This document shows positions 3 to 10,181 of a DNA stretch of 64,000 nucleotides, one piece after another; position 1 is the stretch's first letter, and the number at the start of each line of letters is the position of its first letter. The stretch comes from Spirosoma endbachense. GTDB taxonomy: Bacteria; Bacteroidota; Bacteroidia; Cytophagales; Spirosomataceae. Under the pieces are notes generated by a model. That model saw nothing but the letters and a program-made list of their open reading frames with translations, ran no database searches and was not told where the DNA came from. The DNA lies in NCBI RefSeq assembly GCF_010233585.1, contig NZ_CP045997.1:10005826-10069825 (forward strand). The letters are read 5' to 3'. Position numbers and translations under genes: made by a program.

Positions 3-485
3 ATTACGCCCAGTAGCACCGTTGTATTAGGAACAATTGTGCAATTAGATCTGAAATCGATTTTCGATAAAGTCATTACGCCGGTCCCAGTCCCACCGAC
101 TCCAAATCCAAATCCTCAACCTGTGATTCCTATCGGTGGAGGGGGTAGACCACCCGTGTTTGCCGAAGAATTTAAACGGCTGAATTGGCATTTTGAGCAG
201 TATTCTGCTGCTAAACAGGAAATCCTAACTGGTGATCCGAAGAAAAAAGCCTGGATTCGCGTAGCTATTGGCTGGGTTCCTTATGCCGGTTTTCCACTTG
301 CATCGCTGATCGATGCTTATGTCTTCAATACCAGCGAACGAGTTCAGGTGCTGGATGAAGCCTTCCGACGCGATTACAAATGCCCGAACCCGGCTTGCCA
401 GCAATTTTTAGGGTATATCCCTTTCAACGATTTGCTCCATCAGAGACAGTGCCGGTACTGTAAATGCCTCTGGGTCGACACTTGA
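3..485 (+). CDS. C-terminal part of a zinc-ribbon protein (5' end outside window)
   Basis: The reading frame is open from position 3, the first in-frame base of the window, so the gene starts upstream; the GTG at 39 lies inside coding-like sequence and is probably not the start. The visible part has a Pro-rich linker, a Gly patch, an alpha-helical middle with a short hydrophobic stretch (GWVPYAGFPLASLIDAY), and a C-terminal zinc-ribbon-like pair of knuckles, CPNPAC and CRYC, ending CKCLWVDT. The same CxNPAC knuckle occurs in the FHA protein three genes on, which suggests a common family of zinc-ribbon adaptors in this island. The function is unknown. The stop codon lies inside an AT-rich hairpin (480-510), so this gene probably ends its own transcript. 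Confidence 0.6.
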   Translation: MTPSSTVVLGTIVQLDLKSIFDKVITPVPVPPTPNPNPQPVIPIGGGGRPPVFAEEFKRLNWHFEQYSAAKQEILTGDPKKKAWIRVAIGWVPYAGFPLASLIDAYVFNTSERVQVLDEAFRRDYKCPNPACQQFLGYIPFNDLLHQRQCRYCKCLWVDT

Positions 486-510
486 AAAAAAATAAAACTT
501 TTTTTCAAGT
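480..510 (+). terminator. AT-rich hairpin over the stop of the first gene
   Basis: A 12-bp perfect stem (480-491 pairs with 499-510) with a 7-nt loop covers the TGA stop; the right arm supplies a run of seven T. This looks like an intrinsic terminator between the first gene and the run that starts at 595. Confidence 0.6.
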
Positions 511-594
511 ATCCACTGACATCGCCATACCCTCTTGGATAAAGATATAGAACCCGCTTCAAAAGCGATCCAAACTAGTCAATCATACTAAACC

Positions 595-2058
595 ATGTCA
601 ACAATGAACCCGACTTCTGAATCATTTGATCAGCCTACGCAAGTAGGAACGACCGGCGGAAAAAAACTGACCCGCAAACAAAAATCCCTCATTTATGCCG
701 GTTTAGGGGGAGTTGCTGCTTTAGGTGGTGGCAGTGCACTTGCCTGGGGCATGAGTAAGGATGGCGAAGCCAACGAGAATCATCCAAAAACAGAACCAAA
801 ACCGGCTTCTGACGCTCATGCCAGCGTAGAAGAACCAAAAAAAACTACGGAAACCCCGGCCGACAGCACCCACGTAACAAATCAGCATGGGTCGGCTAAA
901 CCCTCTACTGACCCCACTCATTCAACTACCCAAACAAACGAAACTACTAATACCAACGACCCCATGGTTGCTACACACGTTACCGATGAAATGTCATTTG
1001 ATGACGCTTTTAAAACCGCTCGCCAGGAAGTTGGTGCCGGTGGTTATTTCGAGTGGAATGGCAACCTCTACAATACCTACTACAAAGAAGAATGGGACGC
1101 CCTGTCTGCGAAAGATCGGGAGGAGTATGTTGCCACCGTTTATGGCGACGGTACTAACACCGATCATCACGCATCATATTCTTCCACAGCCAGTTACGAA
1201 GCGAACAAGCCCGAGGTAAAAGTTGGTGAATACAACGGCCATATTGTTGGATTGGGCGACGCCGATCATGACGGTGATGCAGAAGCAGTTGTCATTGACG
1301 GAACGGTTGGATTTGTTGATAAGAATAACGACGGAATTCTGGAAACCCGCGTTGAACTTGACCCCACAACGCATCAGGTGACGGCTCAGAGCCCGATGGC
1401 AACTACCTACGAAGCGCCGAAAATGAGTGACCTGAATGCGTCAGCCTCCGGATCTTCGACAACTGTCAGTACGGCAAATGGTCAGGTTGAAGTGCATCGG
1501 GTTGAATACCAGGGTCATGACCTTATCCTGGGTGATACAAACCACGATGGTGATGCGGAAGTACTCATCATGGATGAAACGAATGGATTCGTTGACGCCG
1601 ACAATGATGGTATCATGGAAACCCGCGTTGAACTCGACCCTACAACGCATCAGGTGACCGGAAAAAGTGCGATGACTGAAGTGTATCATGCGCCCTCGAT
1701 GACTGCGTTCGATGCTCGTCAAAATCAAAATACGGCTACTGCCACCGAAACAAAGCCCGATGTGGAGGTCATAAAAACATCGGTCGACGGGCATGAGGTC
1801 GCTTTGAGTGATACCAATCATGATGGTTATGTCGATGTTATGGTTATGGACAATGGGATCGGTGCCGTCGATAAAGATGGTGACCATCAGTTTGAAACAG
1901 CCGTACGGGTCGATATGAATACTGGCGAGGTTGTGGCTGTTGCTCCGCTGGAACATGTACATGATGCACCAACAATGGATAGCATTAATACAGGCGAGCA
2001 TGCCGATGTGGCCCACGATTATGATAACAATGCCGACGTCAGTGAGTGGGTTGCCTAA
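595..2058 (+). CDS. Single-span membrane protein with three Asp-rich (calcium-type) repeats
   Basis: 487 residues. A short cytoplasmic N-terminus is followed by one membrane span at about 31-53, a Thr/Pro/His-rich linker (55-130), a small domain at about 133-185 (motif GAGGYFEWNGNLYNTYYKEE), and three repeats of about 75 residues at 208-281, 298-373 and 391-466. Each repeat carries DADHDGDAE or DTNHDGD-type and VDKNNDG-type motifs, the D-x-[DN]-x-DG pattern of calcium loops in FG-GAP, dockerin or EF-hand-like proteins. The bulk of the protein is therefore predicted outside the cytoplasmic membrane. It is the first gene of the run with FHA, PP2C, caspase and sigma genes, so a sensing or scaffolding role is an inference. 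No enzyme motif was seen. Confidence 0.8.
   Translation: MSTMNPTSESFDQPTQVGTTGGKKLTRKQKSLIYAGLGGVAALGGGSALAWGMSKDGEANENHPKTEPKPASDAHASVEEPKKTTETPADSTHVTNQHGSAKPSTDPTHSTTQTNETTNTNDPMVATHVTDEMSFDDAFKTARQEVGAGGYFEWNGNLYNTYYKEEWDALSAKDREEYVATVYGDGTNTDHHASYSSTASYEANKPEVKVGEYNGHIVGLGDADHDGDAEAVVIDGTVGFVDKNNDGILETRVELDPTTHQVTAQSPMATTYEAPKMSDLNASASGSSTTVSTANGQVEVHRVEYQGHDLILGDTNHDGDAEVLIMDETNGFVDADNDGIMETRVELDPTTHQVTGKSAMTEVYHAPSMTAFDARQNQNTATATETKPDVEVIKTSVDGHEVALSDTNHDGYVDVMVMDNGIGAVDKDGDHQFETAVRVDMNTGEVVAVAPLEHVHDAPTMDSINTGEHADVAHDYDNNADVSEWVA
1216..1992 (+). repeat. Three in-gene repeats encoding Dx[DN]xDG modules
   Basis: Repeat units at about 1216-1437, 1486-1713 and 1765-1992. Units 1 and 2 are nearly identical at DNA level over the stretch encoding ETRVELDPTTHQVT (about 1339-1380 and 1618-1659, differing at a few third positions), while unit 3 has diverged. 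This suggests recent duplication or gene conversion between the first two units. Confidence 0.75.
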
Positions 2059-2107
2059 ACTGATTTCGCTCTTTCTATTCCATAAAATTTGCCGTTAGTC
2101 AATCGTC

Positions 2108-2800
2108 ATGAACGTTCAGGAACTCAATCTCACTTGCGGAAATCCAGCCTGCCGAGCCCGGCTTACTGTCCGGGTCAAGGTCCCTACCCAGACCAAAGAG
2201 GTAAAATGTCCGAAATGTGGCTATCTCAATCCCTTACCCATGCATTTGTTAGTGCCCGAACAGCCTGAGGGTGTTGATGAGGGAACGTTGATCAAAGAAG
2301 GCGACAGTGAGAAGACATGGATACAGAATCAGGAAGGAGGGAAACCTGCGCTGCCTGAAATCCTGGGGTGGCTGATCGTTCATGACGAAAAAACGGCATC
2401 GCAAACGTTTAATCTGAAAAAAGGACTCAATACAGTGGGTCGGATTTCGCAGAAATCACCTTCAGATCTGATGATTCAGACCGAAGACCGTTATATGAGC
2501 CGTCCTCATTGCACGATAGAAGTGAAGATCAACAAAATGGGGCAGGTCGATTATGTGCTCCAGGACGGCTCCCTGAAAACCGATGGTACCCGGAAAAATA
2601 GCCAGAACGGAACGTTTCTTAACGGTCAGGAGCCTGCTCTTCATCCTTCGGAACAAATCTACCTGAAAGACGGTGACACCATTCAACTTGGTGAAACCAA
2701 GGTTGTTCTGAAAACCTTTCAGATGTCTGAATCGCTGCAAAAGGCCCATCGTCAGGTAGAAGGCAGCGACTTTACCCGTACCATTCTATCGTTTACCTAA
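2108..2800 (+). CDS. Zinc-ribbon plus FHA domain protein
   Basis: 230 residues, predicted cytoplasmic. The N-terminal zinc ribbon has knuckles CGNPAC (Cys10, Cys15) and CPKC (Cys34, Cys37). After an acidic linker comes a forkhead-associated domain at about 88-205 with the canonical phosphothreonine-binding residues: Gly111-Arg112, Ser131-x-x-His134, and NGTFLNG (Asn167 to Gly173). FHA domains bind phospho-Thr peptides, so this is a likely reader of the kinases encoded at 6564-10181 and a client of the PP2C that follows after 15 nt. The CxNPAC knuckle is shared with the first gene of the window. The start ATG at 2108 is the only good one; no clear ribosome binding site is visible, as is usual in Bacteroidota. 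Confidence 0.9.
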   Translation: MNVQELNLTCGNPACRARLTVRVKVPTQTKEVKCPKCGYLNPLPMHLLVPEQPEGVDEGTLIKEGDSEKTWIQNQEGGKPALPEILGWLIVHDEKTASQTFNLKKGLNTVGRISQKSPSDLMIQTEDRYMSRPHCTIEVKINKMGQVDYVLQDGSLKTDGTRKNSQNGTFLNGQEPALHPSEQIYLKDGDTIQLGETKVVLKTFQMSESLQKAHRQVEGSDFTRTILSFT

Positions 2801-2815
2801 AATCGGCCCACTCCT

Positions 2816-4426
2816 ATGAACGTGTTCATTCAACAACCTTTAGGGTATTCATACCAGGGGGGACGTAGTAATAACGAAGACAACATTTTCCCCGTTGCTG
2901 GTGAGGCAACCGTGGGCCAGCGATGGTTTATGGTCTGTGATGGGGTAGGCGGTGCAGCCCGTGGCGAAATAGCAAGCCACATAGCCGTGGAAGGATTTAA
3001 CGACTATTTTGTCCAGAATCAGACAGAGGTTGCTACCTCAGATTATCTTCAGCTGGCTCTCGACTCGGTGCAGGCTCAGTTTGACGACTACCTGACGCGT
3101 CATCCGGAAGCGCATGGAATGGCAACGACGCTTACGTTATTGTTTTTTCACGAAGCCGGTGCTACCGTGGCCCACATTGGCGACAGCCGAGTCTATCATT
3201 TGCGGGATGGGAACGTAATCTGGCGGACGGAAGACCATTCGCTGGTCAATCAATTGATGAAAGCTGGTGTTATCACGCGCGAAGAAGCCCGTGAACATCC
3301 CCAGCGAAATGTCATCGAACGGGCGATTCAGGGAGGTAGTAAAGCCGTTAAGCCCGATGTTCAGATCCTGAACGATATTCGGCCCGGTGATTATTTCTTC
3401 CTGTGCACAGACGGTGTACTCGAACGCGTTAGCGATGAGCTTCTGGAAAACGTTTTGGGGAGTAAGGAGTCGAACGAGCAAAAGAAGCAAACCCTGATCG
3501 ATTGCTGTATCGGCAAAACCAAAGATAATTTCTCGGCCTATCTGGTTCAGATTGACGCCATTCGTGGCGATGTACCCGAAGCGTACCGGGTATCTGCGCC
3601 GATCTATGCTCGTCCGCAGGCTCTGCCCGATGAAACAATCGCAGTGGTGGCCGTCGATTCAAAACGTACCGTACCAGCCCAGGAGAATGTGTTGTTCCAA
3701 ACGACGCCAATACCAAAGGTCGATCCCATAAAAAAACAGCCTTTACTTGACGATCGCGAAAACGATAAACCCCGCCCCGACATCAATTCGATCGTTCTTT
3801 TGTTGACGATTGCCCTTTTTGCGGCCGTTCTGACCGTAGGCGGAATCTATGTTTACAATTGGTGGAAACAGCCTGCTGAGGCTGGCAAAGCGGAACAAGT
3901 GGCTGCCGATCACGGAAAAGTCAATAACAGACCTCGAACGGATGGTAAACTACCACCAAATTCAACAAAGAAAACAACCCCTATTCCCGATGCGGCTACT
4001 GTGGAGGGTATAACTCAGACCATTGGCGGAGAAGATGGTAAAATTGAGATCACCAGAAATCTGTATAAGAAGCAAACCGAATCGGGCTGGATATTAGTGA
4101 ATGAAAAAGGGCGGCAGAAAGGCGATAAGGTATACGAAGTCATTCGTGAGCCGAGTGAAGAGCGCATTGCAGTCATGCAAAACAACAAGTGGGGCTATAT
4201 CAACCTGAAAGGCCAGACGGCTATTGCGTGTAAATTCGATATGGCCGACGATTTTGAGGATGGGAAAGCGCACGTTGTTCGGAATGGCAAAGAATATGAT
4301 ATAGATAAAAAGGGCGAACCGGTTAAGGAAACGCCATCGCGGGCCGAATCGGAGAACCATAGCAAACCGTTCGACGGAACTCCAGCGCTGCCACCAGCCA
4401 CTAAAGGAGATGAGCCTGGTCGGTAA
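2816..4426 (+). CDS. PP2C-type Ser/Thr phosphatase with membrane span and WG repeat
   Basis: 536 residues. The N-terminal PP2C domain (about 5-250) keeps its metal-binding residues: RSNNEDN (Glu21-Asp22), CDGVGG (Asp42), GDSRVY (about 122-127), CTDGV (Asp199) and KDNFS (Asp237). A basic/acidic linker leads to one membrane span at about 325-350. The segment beyond is Pro/Lys-rich and ends in a WG beta-hairpin repeat (NKWGYINLKGQ, about 455-500). The catalytic domain should be cytoplasmic and the WG region extracytoplasmic. It is the obvious antagonist of the two Ser/Thr kinases encoded convergently. Kinase 8262-10181 also carries a WG repeat, but on the other side of its membrane span. Confidence 0.92.
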   Translation: MNVFIQQPLGYSYQGGRSNNEDNIFPVAGEATVGQRWFMVCDGVGGAARGEIASHIAVEGFNDYFVQNQTEVATSDYLQLALDSVQAQFDDYLTRHPEAHGMATTLTLLFFHEAGATVAHIGDSRVYHLRDGNVIWRTEDHSLVNQLMKAGVITREEAREHPQRNVIERAIQGGSKAVKPDVQILNDIRPGDYFFLCTDGVLERVSDELLENVLGSKESNEQKKQTLIDCCIGKTKDNFSAYLVQIDAIRGDVPEAYRVSAPIYARPQALPDETIAVVAVDSKRTVPAQENVLFQTTPIPKVDPIKKQPLLDDRENDKPRPDINSIVLLLTIALFAAVLTVGGIYVYNWWKQPAEAGKAEQVAADHGKVNNRPRTDGKLPPNSTKKTTPIPDAATVEGITQTIGGEDGKIEITRNLYKKQTESGWILVNEKGRQKGDKVYEVIREPSEERIAVMQNNKWGYINLKGQTAIACKFDMADDFEDGKAHVVRNGKEYDIDKKGEPVKETPSRAESENHSKPFDGTPALPPATKGDEPGR

Positions 4427-4494
4427 AGCCTTGTTATACGTAGTGAATTTCAGTTGGATGTTGTGCCAATCTTTAGAACAAGCCCCATACTGCC

Positions 4495-5250
4495 ATGAAA
4501 TGGTTTCTTTTAAGTGCTTTGATTTGGGTTGCGACGATCGAGGTAGTTGCTCAGCAAACCTACGCCGTGGTTGTGGGCGTGTCAGATTACGTAGGTACCC
4601 GTAATGATTTGCATTTTGCCGACGACGATGCCTGGCTGGTAACCCGATTTTTGCGCAGCCCGAAAGGAGGAAGTATTCCACCCAATCACATCATTACCTT
4701 AACCAACGGTCAGGCTACACACGCCAACGTACTCCAGGCACTCCGGATTTTTGAGATGGCTAGGCCCAGTGATCGCATCCTATTTCATTTTTCCGGCCAT
4801 GGACTTGATGGTACTTTTTTTACCGCAGACGATCAGGAATTACTACACCAGGAGTTGAAAGCAGCTTTCCGGCGTTCGGCGGCCAAAACGAAAATTGTCT
4901 GGGCCGATGCCTGCCATTCAGGAAGCATAAGACAATCGTCCAGTGTTCGTCCCATAAATAGCCAGAAGAATTACAGCCAGTTCAACGACCCGTCACTCAA
5001 TATCATTGTTATGGCTTCGTCGCGATCCAGCCAGAATTCAATGGAACAACCCTTTTTGGGGCAAGGTGCTTTTACCTACTTTCTGGTGAAGGGAGCCCAG
5101 GGCGATGCCGACCAGAATCATGATGGAATAGTCACCATTGCTGAACATTATCAGTACGTTCGGGATCGGGTCCAGCAGGTAACCCATAACGCGCAGATAC
5201 CAATAATAACGGGCAAATTTTCTAACACGTTGCCGATCACAATTTTATAA
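4495..5250 (+). CDS. Caspase-like (clan CD, C14) peptidase, exported
   Basis: 251 residues. An N-terminal signal peptide or anchor (about 1-19, ending VVAQQ) precedes a caspase/metacaspase p20-like fold: beta strand YAVVVGVSDY, acidic DDDAWLVTRFL, then the catalytic His102 in HFSGHG and catalytic Cys140 in ADACHSG. The C-terminus holds a calcium-loop-like DADQNHDGIVT motif. Known bacterial members (orthocaspases and C14-type peptidases) cleave after basic or acidic residues and are tied to stress or death programmes; the substrate here is unknown. It sits directly before the ECF sigma gene (7-nt gap), suggesting one transcript. Processing of an envelope target such as the Ca-repeat protein is possible but unproven. 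Confidence 0.88.
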   Translation: MKWFLLSALIWVATIEVVAQQTYAVVVGVSDYVGTRNDLHFADDDAWLVTRFLRSPKGGSIPPNHIITLTNGQATHANVLQALRIFEMARPSDRILFHFSGHGLDGTFFTADDQELLHQELKAAFRRSAAKTKIVWADACHSGSIRQSSSVRPINSQKNYSQFNDPSLNIIVMASSRSSQNSMEQPFLGQGAFTYFLVKGAQGDADQNHDGIVTIAEHYQYVRDRVQQVTHNAQIPIITGKFSNTLPITIL

Positions 5251-5257
5251 TTGATGT

Positions 5258-5872
5258 ATGTATATTGAGGGAAAATCAGTCTATTCAGCGAATATGCTTC
5301 TTCCTCACAATCCGTGCACTGCTTTTTCGACCGATGAATTGCTCTATGCTGGTTTAAAGAACAACGATGACCGGGCTTACGCTTGCCTTTATGCACAGAC
5401 ATTTCGCTCTTTTGCGCATTATGTACAAACAAACCGGGGGAGCATGGAACAGGCACAGGATGCTTTTCAGCAGGGAATTGCCGAGTTCTATGTGGCCGTA
5501 AAATCGGGTCGTTATCAATTATCACCAACGGCCCGCCTGAAAAACGTGCTGTTTGAATTTTGTAAGCGTAAGTGGATTAACGAAGTGCAAAGTGCGCACC
5601 ATCGTCGCACACAAGTGGTAGAGGTTTTCGTTGATCAGAAAGAGGATGATGTATCGGATGAGTTGATAACATTTTCAGAGAACGTCGGTAAAGTGAACCA
5701 GTTGCTGAAACGGATGGGTGAGAATTGCCAGCGTGTCATTGACCTGTTTTATCTTCAGGGGAAGCCACTGGCCGAAATTGCTCAGATCATGAACTACACC
5801 CCCCAAACCGCCCGGACAAAACGGTATGAATGTACCGAACAGCTGAAGCGAATGTTTTGGGGAAAAGGCTAA
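5258..5872 (+). CDS. ECF-type RNA polymerase sigma factor
   Basis: 204 residues with the sigma-70 region 2 fold (about 25-95, ELLYAGLKNNDDRAYACLY) and region 4 helix-turn-helix (about 145-200, EIAQIMNYTPQTARTKRYE). Length is typical for ECF sigma factors. An alternative start is the ATG at 5294, which removes 12 residues that do not match the family; I cannot decide between them by sequence. The gene follows the caspase gene by 7 nt and is followed by a strong hairpin and then an anti-sigma-like gene. It is likely to direct transcription of an unknown regulon, possibly including its own run. Confidence 0.88.
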   Translation: MYIEGKSVYSANMLLPHNPCTAFSTDELLYAGLKNNDDRAYACLYAQTFRSFAHYVQTNRGSMEQAQDAFQQGIAEFYVAVKSGRYQLSPTARLKNVLFEFCKRKWINEVQSAHHRRTQVVEVFVDQKEDDVSDELITFSENVGKVNQLLKRMGENCQRVIDLFYLQGKPLAEIAQIMNYTPQTARTKRYECTEQLKRMFWGKG

Positions 5873-5881
5873 ATCAGTCAT

Positions 5882-5922
5882 TAGGCATTCGCTTTCGGTC
5901 AACGAATGAAAGCGAATGCCTA
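5882..5922 (+). promoter_or_regulatory. Perfect 15-bp hairpin between sigma and anti-sigma-like genes
   Basis: Arms 5882-5896 and 5908-5922 are perfectly complementary with an 11-nt loop. No T-run follows, so it is not a classic intrinsic terminator. It may attenuate or stabilise the message between the two genes. An ATG at 5906 falls inside the loop/arm, which argues for the next in-frame ATG (5948) as the start of the downstream gene. Confidence 0.6.
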
Positions 5923-5947
5923 TAATCACATACTAAATTTCGAACTC

Positions 5948-6442
5948 ATGGCTTTAACTGAAGCAGAATTCGACCGAATTGAAGCGTTTCTGGATGGAAG
6001 TCTTCCTCCCGACGAACGTCAGCAAATGGAAGCCGAAATGGCTCAGGATAGTGACCTGCAACGGGCCGTTGAAGAGCATCGGGTCATTTGGGAAGGGCTA
6101 CAGGTTCCGGTTGCCGTAGAGTATTTTCAGGAAATGCATGGTCAGCTTGACCAACAGGGCCTGCTACAAATTGATGATATTTGGGTTGAAGCCGATCAGC
6201 CGGATGATGCCGCAACCGACCATCCAGCTCATCATTCACACGATGATGAACCCGAAGTGTTTGTGGCCGACGATCCGAAAACGGATTTGGGGAGCACCAG
6301 CCATCATATTGACGTAGCAGTCAATGAAAATGCGGATACTCATTTGTCCCCAGAGCAGGACGAAACCCATGATGGATGGAATAATCCGAACGATTTCGAG
6401 CCTCCACATACGCATTTTGACGGCCATGATGATTATGTTTAG
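5948..6442 (+). CDS. Anti-sigma-like soluble protein with His/Asp-rich tail
   Basis: 164 residues from ATG 5948 (178 from ATG 5906, which lies in a hairpin). The first ~55 residues (EFDRIEAFLDGSLPPDERQQ... then AEMAQDSDLQ) match the short helical segment found at the start of many Bacteroidota anti-sigma factors encoded next to ECF sigmas. Unlike those it has no membrane span: the rest is a Glu/Asp/His-rich tail with clusters such as HPAHHSHDDE and PPHTHFDGHDD. A cytoplasmic sigma-binding protein whose tail binds metal ions is a reasonable inference. It closes the plus-strand run and meets the kinase run at a bidirectional terminator. Confidence 0.6.
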   Translation: MALTEAEFDRIEAFLDGSLPPDERQQMEAEMAQDSDLQRAVEEHRVIWEGLQVPVAVEYFQEMHGQLDQQGLLQIDDIWVEADQPDDAATDHPAHHSHDDEPEVFVADDPKTDLGSTSHHIDVAVNENADTHLSPEQDETHDGWNNPNDFEPPHTHFDGHDDYV

Positions 6443-6454
6443 AACGTAAATAGA

Positions 6455-6504
6455 CCCTAAAAAACCAGCCCGCAAACTTAAGTTTGCGGGCTGGTTTTTT
6501 AGGG
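6455..6504. terminator. 50-bp perfect palindrome, bidirectional terminator
   Basis: The 50 bases from 6455 to 6504 are a perfect inverted repeat (24-bp arms around TA), with A6 on the left arm and T6 on the right arm. Located between convergent genes ending at 6442 (+) and 6564 (-), it has a GC-rich core and T-runs in both directions, as expected for a bidirectional intrinsic terminator. Confidence 0.9.
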
Positions 6505-6563
6505 TAGCCTGAATACAGAATCAGAAAGGTTGAATTTCAGTAAGCTGTTTTGACTTTGTATAC

Positions 6564-7757
6564 TCAACTAAATAGTGCCAGAAACCAGTCAAAGCCGGAC
6601 TTGACGAGTGGTTGTAGTTTCCAGCCTTCAGGAAGCATCAAATCAATGATCATCAGAATGTGAAAATGATAGGCGAAAAAGAGGTAAAAGATCCCTTTTG
6701 CCGCGAAAACGATAACTTCCTTTAAGACATTAGCTAAACCTTCAAATAGACTCCCAATAACTCCAAGGTAATCGACTGATGGGGTTGTATTCGTCGGAAT
6801 TACCTTTTTGGGCGCTGCTTCTTCCTGCTTTACCTGATCTTCGTTCGGTTTTTCGTCTTCCTCTACCCACACAACAATGTCTTCTTCCCCAGGAAGATCA
6901 TACTCCCCGGCATATTGGATGGAAGGCCAAACCGCGAGCAGATCTTCTGCCTTTTGAACCCGTTGGTTAATATCTTTAACCAGACACCGCCGGATCAGGC
7001 TTTGATACGGTTCGGCCACTGTCGACAAACGGGCCGGTAGCTCGGCATTGGCAATCTGTTTCATAAGCTCAATCTCCGAATCAGACTCCTGGCTGTCGAG
7101 CCTGAAGGGTCGTTCGCCGGTATGCAGCTCATAAAGAACCACCCCATAAGCCCACAAATCGACGTTTGTGCGCATTTTGCCATTGGTCAGTTGCTCTGGC
7201 GACATATAGCTCAATGAACCGCCAACCTTACTATTGGAAAACGAAAGATCGGCATTCGCCACATTCCGTCCCAGACCGAAGTCTGCAATTTTAGGTACAA
7301 GTTTTCCCGCTTCTACATCGACCAATACATTCGCTGGTTTCAGGTCGCGGTGAATCGTCTGGTACGAATGCAGATGCTGTAAACCTTTTAGAATTCCAGT
7401 GGATAAGTCATTTATTTCAGAAGAGGTTAGCGGGCGCTGGTGGATAAGCTGAGCCAGATTTCCGGCTTCATAGTAGGGCATTATCCCATAGTCGAACCAC
7501 CCGGCAGAGGGTAGATTAAACCGGTAATTGCTCTGATAACGTATCAAATGCGGATGAGGAGGTAACTGATTGATCCGTTTGACTTCTTCTTCCAGCGAAA
7601 GACTTGGCTGGCTCAGGTCCACTTTCGAACATTTGATAGCCACAGGTTCGCTGGTCTCCGTATCGAAGGCGCGATAAACCGTGCCGAACCCACCCTGACC
7701 GATCAGGTCGCGGGTTGTATCGTAGCGATAGCGCTCTAAAAATTGGTCGAGTGTCAT
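6564..7757 (-). CDS. Ser/Thr protein kinase with C-terminal membrane span
   Basis: 397 residues from ATG 7757; the longer TTG start at 7766 is less likely, and the second kinase begins with a similar MTxxxFxxRY sequence. Complete Hanks-type kinase domain (about 15-275): glycine loop GQGGFGTV, Lys42 in VAIK, IHRDLKPANV (catalytic Asp138), ADFGLG (Asp159), MSPEQL in place of APE, and VDLWAYG. An acidic linker follows, then a hydrophobic segment at about 348-375. No extracellular sensor domain is present, so signal input may come from a partner, for example the small membrane protein encoded just upstream (7824-8222). It shares the run with a second kinase and faces the phosphatase/FHA run. Confidence 0.92.
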   Translation of the reverse strand: MTLDQFLERYRYDTTRDLIGQGGFGTVYRAFDTETSEPVAIKCSKVDLSQPSLSLEEEVKRINQLPPHPHLIRYQSNYRFNLPSAGWFDYGIMPYYEAGNLAQLIHQRPLTSSEINDLSTGILKGLQHLHSYQTIHRDLKPANVLVDVEAGKLVPKIADFGLGRNVANADLSFSNSKVGGSLSYMSPEQLTNGKMRTNVDLWAYGVVLYELHTGERPFRLDSQESDSEIELMKQIANAELPARLSTVAEPYQSLIRRCLVKDINQRVQKAEDLLAVWPSIQYAGEYDLPGEEDIVVWVEEDEKPNEDQVKQEEAAPKKVIPTNTTPSVDYLGVIGSLFEGLANVLKEVIVFAAKGIFYLFFAYHFHILMIIDLMLPEGWKLQPLVKSGFDWFLALFS

Positions 7758-7823
7758 GGCTTCCAAAAGGGTTTGCGATCGTTTAGGTTATGCTGCCAGT
7801 AGTTCATTGACTTAGACAGCTAT

Positions 7824-8222
7824 TCAGGAAATCCGCCGGAAGGTTGCATCGCCCCAGGCCAGTTTGGGGTAGAAAATAAAGGGTAGAAACAACAGTCCAA
7901 TTGTAAAGGCTTCGCTTTTGCCAAATCGTTTGCCCAATAGATTGAGCACCCAAATCAGGACTACGATGTTCACGAACGGAATGATCAGCAGAAACACCCA
8001 CCACCAGGGTTTATCGACAATGCGAAGTAGGGTTAAGGTGTTGTAAATGGGGACGATAGAGGCCCAGCCAGGTTCTCCGGCTTTCTCGAACGTTTTCCAG
8101 AGCGCCGTGATTAGCACCCCGGTGATCACCAGCCATCCGGCAACGATCATCAACGTACCTGTTTGGGCTACAGTTCTCGATGTATTATCGTAGTAATATT
8201 GTAAAAGAATGATCGCATTCAT
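7824..8222 (-). CDS. DUF5684-type small membrane protein
   Basis: 132 residues with three to four hydrophobic spans (about 20-42, 70-92, 103-120). The pattern GEPGWASIVPIYN...LL followed by KPWWWVFLLIIPFVNI is characteristic of DUF5684, a membrane family of unknown function. Here it is encoded between two membrane Ser/Thr kinases (40-66 nt gaps), which suggests a membrane partner or sensor for one of them; that is inference only. Confidence 0.75.
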   Translation of the reverse strand: MNAIILLQYYYDNTSRTVAQTGTLMIVAGWLVITGVLITALWKTFEKAGEPGWASIVPIYNTLTLLRIVDKPWWWVFLLIIPFVNIVVLIWVLNLLGKRFGKSEAFTIGLLFLPFIFYPKLAWGDATFRRIS

Positions 8223-8261
8223 GATCGTAATTATTGACGGAAAATGATTGACTAACAGGAT

Positions 8262-10181
8262 TTATTGGAGACGAAACGAGCGGACAATGTGCAGTAAATC
8301 CGCTTCGTGCATGGACTGTTTGGACTTTAGTGTCCAGGCGAAAATCTGGTAATATTTTTCCGGTGACTTATAAAATCCGTTTATGCAGAACAGCGTCATC
8401 GCGTTCCCGTTATTGACATAATCGACGTCGCGCGTAATAAGCTGCAATCCATCTTCCGTATAATCAACATCAGATAAACTGCGAGTCTGAAATCCCTTCC
8501 TGTCTTTCGTTGTGACCTTTCTGTACTGATCCAGATTATAGATGCCAGCCGCTTCGACATCTGAAATTTTTTCAGTAAAGGCAACCATATACAATTCCTG
8601 CACCGGATTGGAAAACTGAAGTTCAGCTCCATTCCGGAGGTTCGTAACCGCATTCATCGAACGCGGAACATCGACATAGAAATCACTGCCGCTAACTAAT
8701 CGGGTTGCCAGCAAATGGCTGAAAACCGAATTTTCGGCAGTAGGAGATGAGCTATTCTCTTCGAACGTAATGGTATTCTGACTTGTGTAGCCCGAACTGT
8801 CGTAGCTTGGGGCAAATACCCCGTTCGCTACTAAACTCAGCAGGAGCATCCCGAAAAGAATTAACCAGATACCGACGGCAACAAAAATATAGACCTGACG
8901 CAGGGTTGTTGAAGGCGGTTGCGGAGGAGTGTCATCCAGAATAGGTTTGGGCTTCGGGACTGGCTGTGGTATGGGCGTAGGTGTCGGGGGAATAGGTGTT
9001 GGACGAGGTTCCGGACGAACGAAGGGTGCTTCGGATAGCGAATGAAAGGTGTTACCCGTAAGCTGTATTTTAGATGCCTGACCCTGTTTTCGAATCAGCG
9101 CCTGCTGTCCCTGAACATCGGTGATCGAGGTGTATTCGATCGGCACTATTAAATTTCCCGCGGTGTTGATCAGCCCCCATAAATGATCTTGCCTGACAGC
9201 GGCATACCCTTCGCTAAATGATCGTTGCTCATCGTAGGCTGGTGGTTCAATGGGCGGAAGCACGTCGACTGGCTCATCGGGTAAATGATCCGATGGTGAA
9301 AAGATCTGTAGTAAAGCAGTGGCCGTGTGAACCCGCTGGTCAACATCGCGGATCAGGCATTGCCGGATCATGGTCTGATACGGATCGGGAATTTCGCTAA
9401 ACTGCGAGGGAAGTTCAACGTTGTTGATCCGCTGAATAATTTGAGAGCGATCGGTTTCCGACCCGGCCCCGCTATCGCCGATGAACGGTCGCTGCCCAGT
9501 CATCAGTTCATATAGAATTACGCCAAAAGCCCATAAATCGACGTTAAATCGCATTCGGTTATTGGCTAACTGCTCCGGTGCCATGTAATAAACAGAGCCA
9601 CCAATTGTCGAATTCAGGAAAGCGGTTGAAGTAGCTACCAGGTCTTCACCCCGGACCACTTTGCTCAGGCCAAAATCTGTAATCAGCGGCACATATTTTC
9701 CGTAAGGTGTTCGGGTAATCAGAATGTTCTGGGGTTTCAGGTCGCGGTGGGCCATGTGGTAATGGTGCAGATGCGCCAGTCCACTCAAAATGCCACCAAT
9801 AATTGAGTCCTTTTCGTCCTGCGTAAGACTCGTTTTACGGAGCAATTCGGCCAGATTGCCTTCTTTGTAAAATTTCAGAACCGCCATATCAACTACGCCA
9901 AATACAGTCGTAAACCGTTCGCAGAATTCATACCGGGCAATGTTACTGTGGCGTGGTAGCTGATTGGCTATTTCCACTTCCCGCTGAAGGGAAAGGTCCC
10001 GCTGGTCGGCCCGAACGGGCGAAACTTTAATTGCCACCCATTGATTTTCAACCGTGTCCCAGCCTTTAAAAACGGCTCCGAAGCCGCCTTCGCCTAGGCG
10101 GCCGAAATCTTCATCGCGCTCGGGTGAATTGAGCTTACTGGGTTCGTAATGGTAGCGTTTACGGAATTCTTCGTAAGTCAT
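8262..10181 (-). CDS. Ser/Thr protein kinase with WG repeat, Pro-rich linker, membrane span and outer domain
   Basis: 639 residues. Kinase domain (about 25-295) has all key residues: GEGGFGAVF, Lys52 in VAIK, AHRDLKPQN (Asp147), TDFGLS (Asp169), MAPEQL. Next come a WG beta-hairpin repeat (LWGLINTAGNLIVPIEY, about 322-370), a Pro-rich linker (388-425), a membrane span (430-452) and an outer domain of ~185 residues (460-639) with no recognised family. The outer domain is the likely sensor. The WG repeat is cytoplasmic here, whereas the same module in the PP2C phosphatase is predicted outside. First gene of the minus-strand run; its promoter should lie in 10182-10520. Confidence 0.92.
   Translation of the reverse strand: MTYEEFRKRYHYEPSKLNSPERDEDFGRLGEGGFGAVFKGWDTVENQWVAIKVSPVRADQRDLSLQREVEIANQLPRHSNIARYEFCERFTTVFGVVDMAVLKFYKEGNLAELLRKTSLTQDEKDSIIGGILSGLAHLHHYHMAHRDLKPQNILITRTPYGKYVPLITDFGLSKVVRGEDLVATSTAFLNSTIGGSVYYMAPEQLANNRMRFNVDLWAFGVILYELMTGQRPFIGDSGAGSETDRSQIIQRINNVELPSQFSEIPDPYQTMIRQCLIRDVDQRVHTATALLQIFSPSDHLPDEPVDVLPPIEPPAYDEQRSFSEGYAAVRQDHLWGLINTAGNLIVPIEYTSITDVQGQQALIRKQGQASKIQLTGNTFHSLSEAPFVRPEPRPTPIPPTPTPIPQPVPKPKPILDDTPPQPPSTTLRQVYIFVAVGIWLILFGMLLLSLVANGVFAPSYDSSGYTSQNTITFEENSSSPTAENSVFSHLLATRLVSGSDFYVDVPRSMNAVTNLRNGAELQFSNPVQELYMVAFTEKISDVEAAGIYNLDQYRKVTTKDRKGFQTRSLSDVDYTEDGLQLITRDVDYVNNGNAMTLFCINGFYKSPEKYYQIFAWTLKSKQSMHEADLLHIVRSFRLQ

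Follow-up and report, generated by a model that had tools for sequence, protein, structure and literature searches.

The window analysed here, a stretch of 64,000 nucleotides from Spirosoma endbachense (contig NZ_CP045997.1, positions 10,005,826 to 10,069,825; genome G000 among the loci and genomes compared, which carry L and G labels), holds at its left end an island of ten signalling genes in two convergent runs. The run on the + strand opens with the 3' part of FHA1 (3..485), which encodes an FHA domain, a hydrophobic stretch and, as read by eye, a C-terminal zinc ribbon, and which is a conserved partner in related loci. It is followed by CaR (595..2058), a predicted bitopic Ca-repeat protein with an FG-GAP_3 match under the Pfam cut-off (E 0.0012), by FHA2 (2108..2800), with an N-terminal Cys4 zinc ribbon (matches under cut-off) and an FHA domain (E 3.5e-11), and by a PP2C phosphatase (2816..4426; PP2C_2 E 1.1e-14) with a transmembrane segment at about residues 326-344 and C-terminal WG repeats. 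Next comes a peptidase of caspase/metacaspase fold, hereafter the caspase (4495..5250; Peptidase_C14 E 1.8e-18), with an N-terminal export-type segment (about residues 1-20). Its catalytic His102 (4798..4800) and Cys140 (4912..4914), placed by alignment, were called intact in the original prediction, an earlier reading of this DNA, and both are invariant in 17 aligned homologues. The run ends with an extracytoplasmic function (ECF) sigma factor (5258..5872; TIGR02937 E 1.8e-15), whose sigma2.2 region reads QAQD (codons 5450-5461), and an anti-sigma-like protein (5906..6442) with weak matches, both under cut-off (zf-HC2 E 0.007; NF052375 E 0.012), and no transmembrane segment in this genome.

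Between the runs, at 6455..6504, lies a hairpin with flanking A/T runs, read by eye from the sequence, which is likely a bidirectional terminator. Beyond it the - strand encodes K2 (6564..7766; Pkinase E 1.3e-50), a Ser/Thr kinase with a C-terminal transmembrane segment, a DUF5684 membrane protein (7824..8222; E 2.5e-25), and K3 (8262..10181; Pkinase E 6.6e-48), a Ser/Thr kinase with WG repeats and a transmembrane segment at about residues 432-450. Intergenic gaps within the window's + run measure 7-109 nt and, together with the hairpin, fit one operon facing another. The two convergent runs described in the original prediction are thus real, with ten genes by domain matches, and its suspicion that more members lie beyond the left edge was borne out: FHA1 begins in the left flank, at G000:C1:10005528 (full gene L009:15529-16311, + strand), behind K1, a + strand kinase with Sel1-like repeats (G000:C1:10003655-10005517) that heads the run. 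The region upstream of K1, aligned in five genomes, showed conserved stretches and no assignable promoter motif.

The genome has 10 Pkinase matches, four of them in this island (island A) or its paralogue (island B). Three of the ten fall in a kinase/PP2C/kinase cluster of a different type (L143:7734-18528; G000:C1:5743733-5754527), with an FHA-like protein recognized by eye, and at another locus (L144, G000:C1:8106000-8125900) a kinase frame of ~1,780 aa stands 5-11 kb from two caspase matches in ~1,030-aa frames.

To evaluate conservation, the same 150 genomes of the Spirosomataceae family, drawn from a larger group, were searched with FHA2, caspase and sigma. FHA2 was matched in 26 of them (E <= 1e-15). 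The caspase gave 39 close matches (E <= 1.2e-40), followed by a clean gap to 2.3e-23, and for every one of the 39 a PP2C gene lies no more than 2 kb away (at L099 and L105, both in the same genus, caspase and PP2C are fused) and an FHA gene no more than 5 kb away; six belong to type A, nine to other FHA2 islands and 24 to the paralogous island B. Two long caspases with weaker matches (L107, L108), where no other island gene was seen, were kept outside this count, and a weaker caspase of the window's own genome (L131) stands without the module. At L087 and L092, where FHA2 was unmatched by BLAST at 1e-4, open reading frames of 202 and 203 aa occupy its place, that of L092 on the opposite strand. 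With up to 21 candidates scored per genome, the sigma search gave 28 close matches (E <= 2.4e-28), of which 26 lie in islands (6 A, 20 B); of the other two, one stands alone (G080), and one is on an 8.3-kb contig (G119:C70) beside a 712-aa protein that shares 72% identity with one from the B region L099. Within the family, caspase and sigma homologues are thus not usually found away from the PP2C, FHA and kinase genes, the situation in which the shared circuit of the original prediction would have lost its basis.

The arrangement of these genes varies more than their content. Larkinella terrae, the one locus found in a scan of genome contigs with the caspase, has the + run in the same order as the window, with DUF5684 and K3 opposite and K2 absent. 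Among the six A-type loci, one of which (L042) ends too early to judge the - run, K3 and DUF5684 occur in three and the K2 position is occupied only in the window's own genome; the original prediction had joined both runs in one circuit, and only its + run stands as a conserved core. Island B holds the same core in another arrangement, FHA1-CaR-FHA2-PP2C-caspase-kinase, which the sigma and anti-sigma genes face. In a PP2C tree of 59 rows (without an outgroup root; L067-L069 left out) A and B each form one clade (100/98 and 100/99). As judged by comparison of sequences, both A and B retain membrane kinases, PP2C and a pair of FHA proteins alongside a predicted bitopic CaR and an export-type caspase, mostly with the sigma/anti-sigma-like pair, and the data support the view that within the family the island genes form one conserved module. 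Inspection by eye of the surroundings of six B loci (L081, L095, L096, L098, L099, L101) showed an exported TPR protein, a lipoprotein-like protein with PKD-like or other repeats, or both; these proteins (L081:7796-10399 and kin) are candidate surface sensors.

The same type of module occurs next to type VI secretion system (T6SS) genes, a kinship that the original prediction missed. With TssC (PF17541; query from the Runella plasmid NZ_CP030851) as the sole T6SS marker, 16 of 30 FHA2 loci lay within 31 kb of this Bacteroidota T6SS gene. All 16 are outside type A, and none of the six A-type loci is within 35 kb of it; the 30 include L067-L069, FHA2 matches without FHA1 or CaR. TssC was matched in 45 of the 150 family genomes. 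Neither the protein nor PF17541 found it in three island A genomes (G071, G082, G091) or in four island B genomes (G079, G089, G058, G043), and the PF17541 search left 7 of 10 genomes without a match. In the window's own genome TssC stands at 3.5755 Mb, 6.4 Mb along the contig from the island, and has no adjacent Pkinase match. On the Runella rosea plasmid NZ_CP030851 the module is accompanied by T6SSiii genes; the record gives the plasmid as linear, but if it were circular the two would be adjacent. In the PP2C tree, A is sister to the T6SS-linked L046-L048 (99/91) and B to a group of six (96/89), five of them T6SS-linked and the sixth with TssC on another contig.

The same plasmid also has, at NZ_CP030851.1:19441-21665 and 59720-75566, a pesticin-like muramidase gene that comes after a kinase gene, and T6SS genes of which some look short (such as TssK, 131 aa); transposase and recombinase genes are present too. 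Caspases of other kinds also occur near TssC: in the window's own genome three caspase-domain matches (G000:C1:3562009-3576832; two in one 667-aa frame) lie 7-14 kb from the only TssC match, and on G143:C50 a 960-aa caspase lies about 7 kb from TssC.

These observations recall the PpkA-PppA-Fha pathway, in which, according to the portion of the Agrobacterium study available to us, the bitopic TssL is phosphorylated by PpkA on Thr14, in its cytosolic N-terminal portion, and Fha binds the phosphorylated site (peptide DLPpTVVEI; PMC3953482). The island and this pathway have in common a membrane Hanks kinase, a PP2C phosphatase and an FHA protein encoded together, as well as a bitopic protein whose cytosolic N-terminus carries a Thr motif; moreover, T6SSiii genes are found near relatives of the module. 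The island differs in having no TssC nearby, in its two FHA proteins with zinc ribbons and in the added caspase and ECF sigma. By position and motif, and not as a homologue, we propose that CaR may take TssL's part; it has no Pfam or fold match to TssL. Since the A loci do not lie by T6SS genes (0/6) and three of the six genomes gave no TssC, we do not file the island as a member of the pathway, although it may work like one. The FHA/PpkA accounts in the accessible parts of PMC5813230 and PMC10433429 concern T6SSi, and among open-licence titles and abstract starts nothing was found on this island or on a T6SSiii phosphorylation pathway.

CaR is predicted to consist of a short N-tail, a transmembrane helix (27-44), a disordered linker, a conserved ordered domain (121-184) and, in the window, three beta repeats with DxDxDG-type acidic loops. 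An alignment of 24 members shows eight invariant columns in the ordered domain, and FG-GAP_3 was detected in 5 of the 24. The consensus of the ordered domain, FxxAFxxARxEVGPGGxFxWxGxxYNTYxKEEW, has no Pfam match at the cut-offs, and the AlphaFold model of CaR (mean pLDDT 70.6, pTM 0.33) gave no PDB fold match at E <= 0.001. CaR N-tails often carry an acidic-Thr motif, for example FDQPTQV in A, FEKTQI, EHTQFF, and TDxY or TDVF in B, and Thr15 of the window's CaR (637..639, + strand), in FDQPTQV, is a candidate phosphothreonine. A motif of the same kind is found in kinase linkers, as DEKTQI in the own-genome K1 and as TDV[YF] or near variants in most B kinases. A second candidate phosphothreonine, Thr225 (2780..2782, + strand), lies in the FHA2 C-terminal tail and is conserved in >=90% of 23 aligned homologues (22 by eye); at the class-level locus L147, CaR starts NEKTVII and FHA2 ends AKTVLI. 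Motifs of the TQxF type resemble those read by the FHA domain of RNF8.

Counted against shuffled sequences, acid-T-[QD] occurred in 39 of 55 CaR tails (shuffle mean 8.3, max 17) and in 36 of 58 kinase linkers (mean 17.6, max 28), and a second pattern in 27 of 52 FHA2 tails (shuffle 6.9); control PP2C linkers had acid-T-[QD] in 4 of 27, with 4.1 in shuffles. In a motif scan, the phosphothreonine pocket of the A-type FHA2, of Arg/Ser/Arg/Asn type, was intact (GR, SRxH, NGT), and FHA1 of B mostly kept the pocket Arg.

For the caspase, the predicted model (mean pLDDT 88.5) resembles metacaspases, legumain and MALT1, with E 5.2e-11 and a TM-score of 0.63 for the metacaspase Yca1, and also fits a Candida metacaspase solved with calcium. 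The island caspase shares the fold and the His-Cys dyad with metacaspases and orthocaspases (C14). Metacaspases cleave after Arg or Lys, often in a Ca-dependent manner, and in the island caspase Asp138 and Glu184 are invariant among the aligned homologues, which would be consistent with a basic P1 pocket. It differs from these relatives in its export-type N-terminus, its single short domain and its place in a phosphosignalling operon. Of 37 island caspases, 36 begin with a hydrophobic export-type segment that ends shortly ahead of the catalytic domain, 8 of them with a motif fitting a loose lipobox pattern; the sole one under the threshold is that of L083 (1.55). In both PP2C-caspase fusions a hydrophobic segment separates the two domains, as expected if PP2C were inside and the caspase outside. 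The island caspases are probably exported. Because export would place the protease across the membrane from the kinase domains, the original prediction's idea that the kinases gate the peptidase by direct phosphorylation is not supported. Nor did this analysis give any positive sign of the suicide role that it suggested, and suicide by a cytosolic caspase was rejected as a first choice on account of the export segments.

Kinase control of the sigma factor, also envisaged in the original prediction, has a precedent in ECF43 factors, in which Thr replaces the acidic sigma2.2 residues (PMC8999054 and PMC13147305, in the parts available). The island resembles the ECF43 cases (EcfP/PknT, EcfK/PknS) in having an ECF sigma gene within a kinase cluster. 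It differs in that its sigma2.2 region has no QTTA/STTA phosphoacceptor and an anti-sigma-like gene is its direct neighbour. At the acidic positions A sigmas read QAQD or HAQD, aligned B sigmas DAED, and L058 and L059 DAKD. With no Ser or Thr there in A and DAED kept in B, the ECF43 mechanism is not applicable and activation of the EcfP/EcfK kind found no support; it was rejected on the sigma2.2 residues, a verdict that covers sigma2.2 and not EcfK-type linker phosphosites.

In 22 of 30 loci, at the BLAST cut-off applied, the anti-sigma-like gene is adjacent to sigma and shares its strand; its family matches are under cut-off. A transmembrane segment over threshold was found in one of six A-type proteins (L045) and in 6 of 16 B-type proteins, and a full reading of the B protein of L081 shows a hydrophobic stretch with a TPR-like part after it. 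The B anti-sigma seems to span the membrane, and the caspase might therefore act on its outer, TPR-like portion. A caspase-superfamily gene near an ECF sigma is also a feature of the ECF54 group with CHAT/peptidase neighbours; that group differs in having CHAT instead of C14, and the accessible part of PMC8999054 makes no mention of a PP2C/FHA module.

Outside the family, 17 strong caspase loci were inspected, and eight further order-level matches at E <= 1e-50 (e.g., G198, G285, two in G153, G280) in part. The module is present at five of the 17 (L113-L116, L121). Elsewhere in the order, other families have the set with its genes rearranged (L113 and L114, f4; L115, f18; L116, f2), L121 (f9) has caspase, kinase, PP2C and FHA genes and no CaR match, L130 (f14) has the set without the caspase, and L129 (f14) has kinases, PP2C and FHA2 only. 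At class level, L147 comprises FHA1, CaR, FHA2, PP2C and kinase, L150 has FHA2, PP2C, kinase and T6SS genes with no CaR or FHA1 match, and L148 and L149 gave an FHA2 match alone. FHA2 of the island kind is rare in the phylum, found in 7 of 345 genomes, four of them outside the order, and a plasmid search with the caspase gave a match in one of 72,556 records. That content is kept while order changes, together with the two natural fusions, speaks for a shared job.

We consider it somewhat more probable than not that the island is a membrane threonine-phosphorylation module of the PpkA-PppA-Fha working type with no adjoining T6SS, in which CaR is the likely phosphothreonine target and the exported caspase and the ECF sigma are companions. 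An envelope signal would lead the kinases to phosphorylate Thr in short acidic motifs of their own linkers, the CaR cytosolic tail and the FHA2 C-tail; an FHA domain would dock on the phosphorylated motifs, so that a CaR-kinase-FHA complex assembles, and PP2C would reset it. Through CaR this state could be relayed to the far side of the membrane, where the Ca-repeat domain would lie close to the exported protease, which, having the fold of Ca-dependent metacaspases, may trim envelope substrates, while the sigma/anti-sigma pair would set the transcriptional side of the same response. A wider proposal, which we put forward only tentatively, is that the T6SSiii of Bacteroidota use a Thr-phosphorylation pathway with CaR as phosphothreonine target, and that on two occasions (A and B) this pathway was freed from T6SS and connected instead to an ECF sigma and an exported caspase, yielding a protease response that acts across the envelope under phosphothreonine control.

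Several observations weigh against these readings. The motif patterns pool TQ, TD and TV variants; the second pattern was found in 13 of 27 control PP2C linkers (shuffle mean 7.6, max 15); and, because the sequences are related, shuffles overstate independence, so that the motif counts rank rather than prove. FHA1 of A has changes at two pocket positions (GK, STYGT; motif scan), and FHA2 of B has lost the pocket Arg. No kinase was found at two of the 39 caspase loci (L051 and L054; on the plasmid of L054 one is present about 13 kb further on) and no sigma at the B islands of G000, G146 and G080, absences that refer to the sequence stretches fetched around those islands. The caspase is missing from 11 of the 16 T6SS-linked loci (L066 being cut by a contig end), and, the tree root being unknown, a T6SS-linked ancestral state is not proved. 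Twelve of the 17 outside-family caspase loci (L117-L120, L122-L128, L132) have no FHA2 match, L125 among them with weak kinase- and PP2C-like matches beside the caspase, and the tie between caspase and module is for this reason a feature of the family and some relatives; the co-occurrence expected by the original prediction holds within the family, mostly with kinases, and fails at these loci. Our estimates of probability rest mainly on the family data. Phosphorylation, docking and proteolysis at the island are steps that we infer, and the coupling of the complex to the caspase through CaR's outer face is conjectural and the weakest of them.

Among other explanations, the island could still serve T6SS, acting remotely on a T6SSiii elsewhere in the same genome, as the core relatives by T6SS genes and the kinase-free surroundings of the own-genome TssC might suggest; the 6.4 Mb between the two, and the A and B genomes listed above in which TssC was not found, make this improbable. 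We give a similarly low probability to the circuit of the original prediction, in which the kinases would operate a stress or suicide switch by direct phosphorylation of sigma, the caspase or both. Gene linkage within the family would fit it, and kinase-regulated ECF groups exist (PMC8999054 and PMC13147305, parts available). It sits poorly, however, with the caspase export segments, the sigma2.2 residues, an anti-sigma that is membrane-bound in some B islands at least and the absence of any toxicity sign.

An anti-phage or abortive-infection system appears less likely still. Caspase-like proteases and kinases are known in conflict systems (PMC7159879, in the part seen), and PADLOC matched the kinase, PP2C and caspase; those matches, among ten proteins scanned, cover only generic domains, the island exists as two old paralogous types spread over the family, and export of the caspase would fit envelope work better. 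Equally doubtful is that the genes are neighbours by descent only, with no shared function: gene order is inherited among close relatives and many outside-family caspase homologues stand alone, yet across families (L113-L116) the order is reshuffled and the content kept, and the old A/B paralogy and the PP2C-caspase fusions also weigh against it.

To our knowledge, the roles and control of prokaryotic caspase homologues are largely open. Among the 150 family genomes, a clade of short caspases, probably exported, always has PP2C/FHA genes close by and mostly kinases as well, which makes the island a tractable system for asking how a metacaspase-like protease cooperates with phosphothreonine signalling. 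The island also provides a candidate layer of control for the T6SSiii of Bacteroidota and a case of such a layer persisting without the machine, suggesting that a weapon-control circuit may have been reused for another envelope response.

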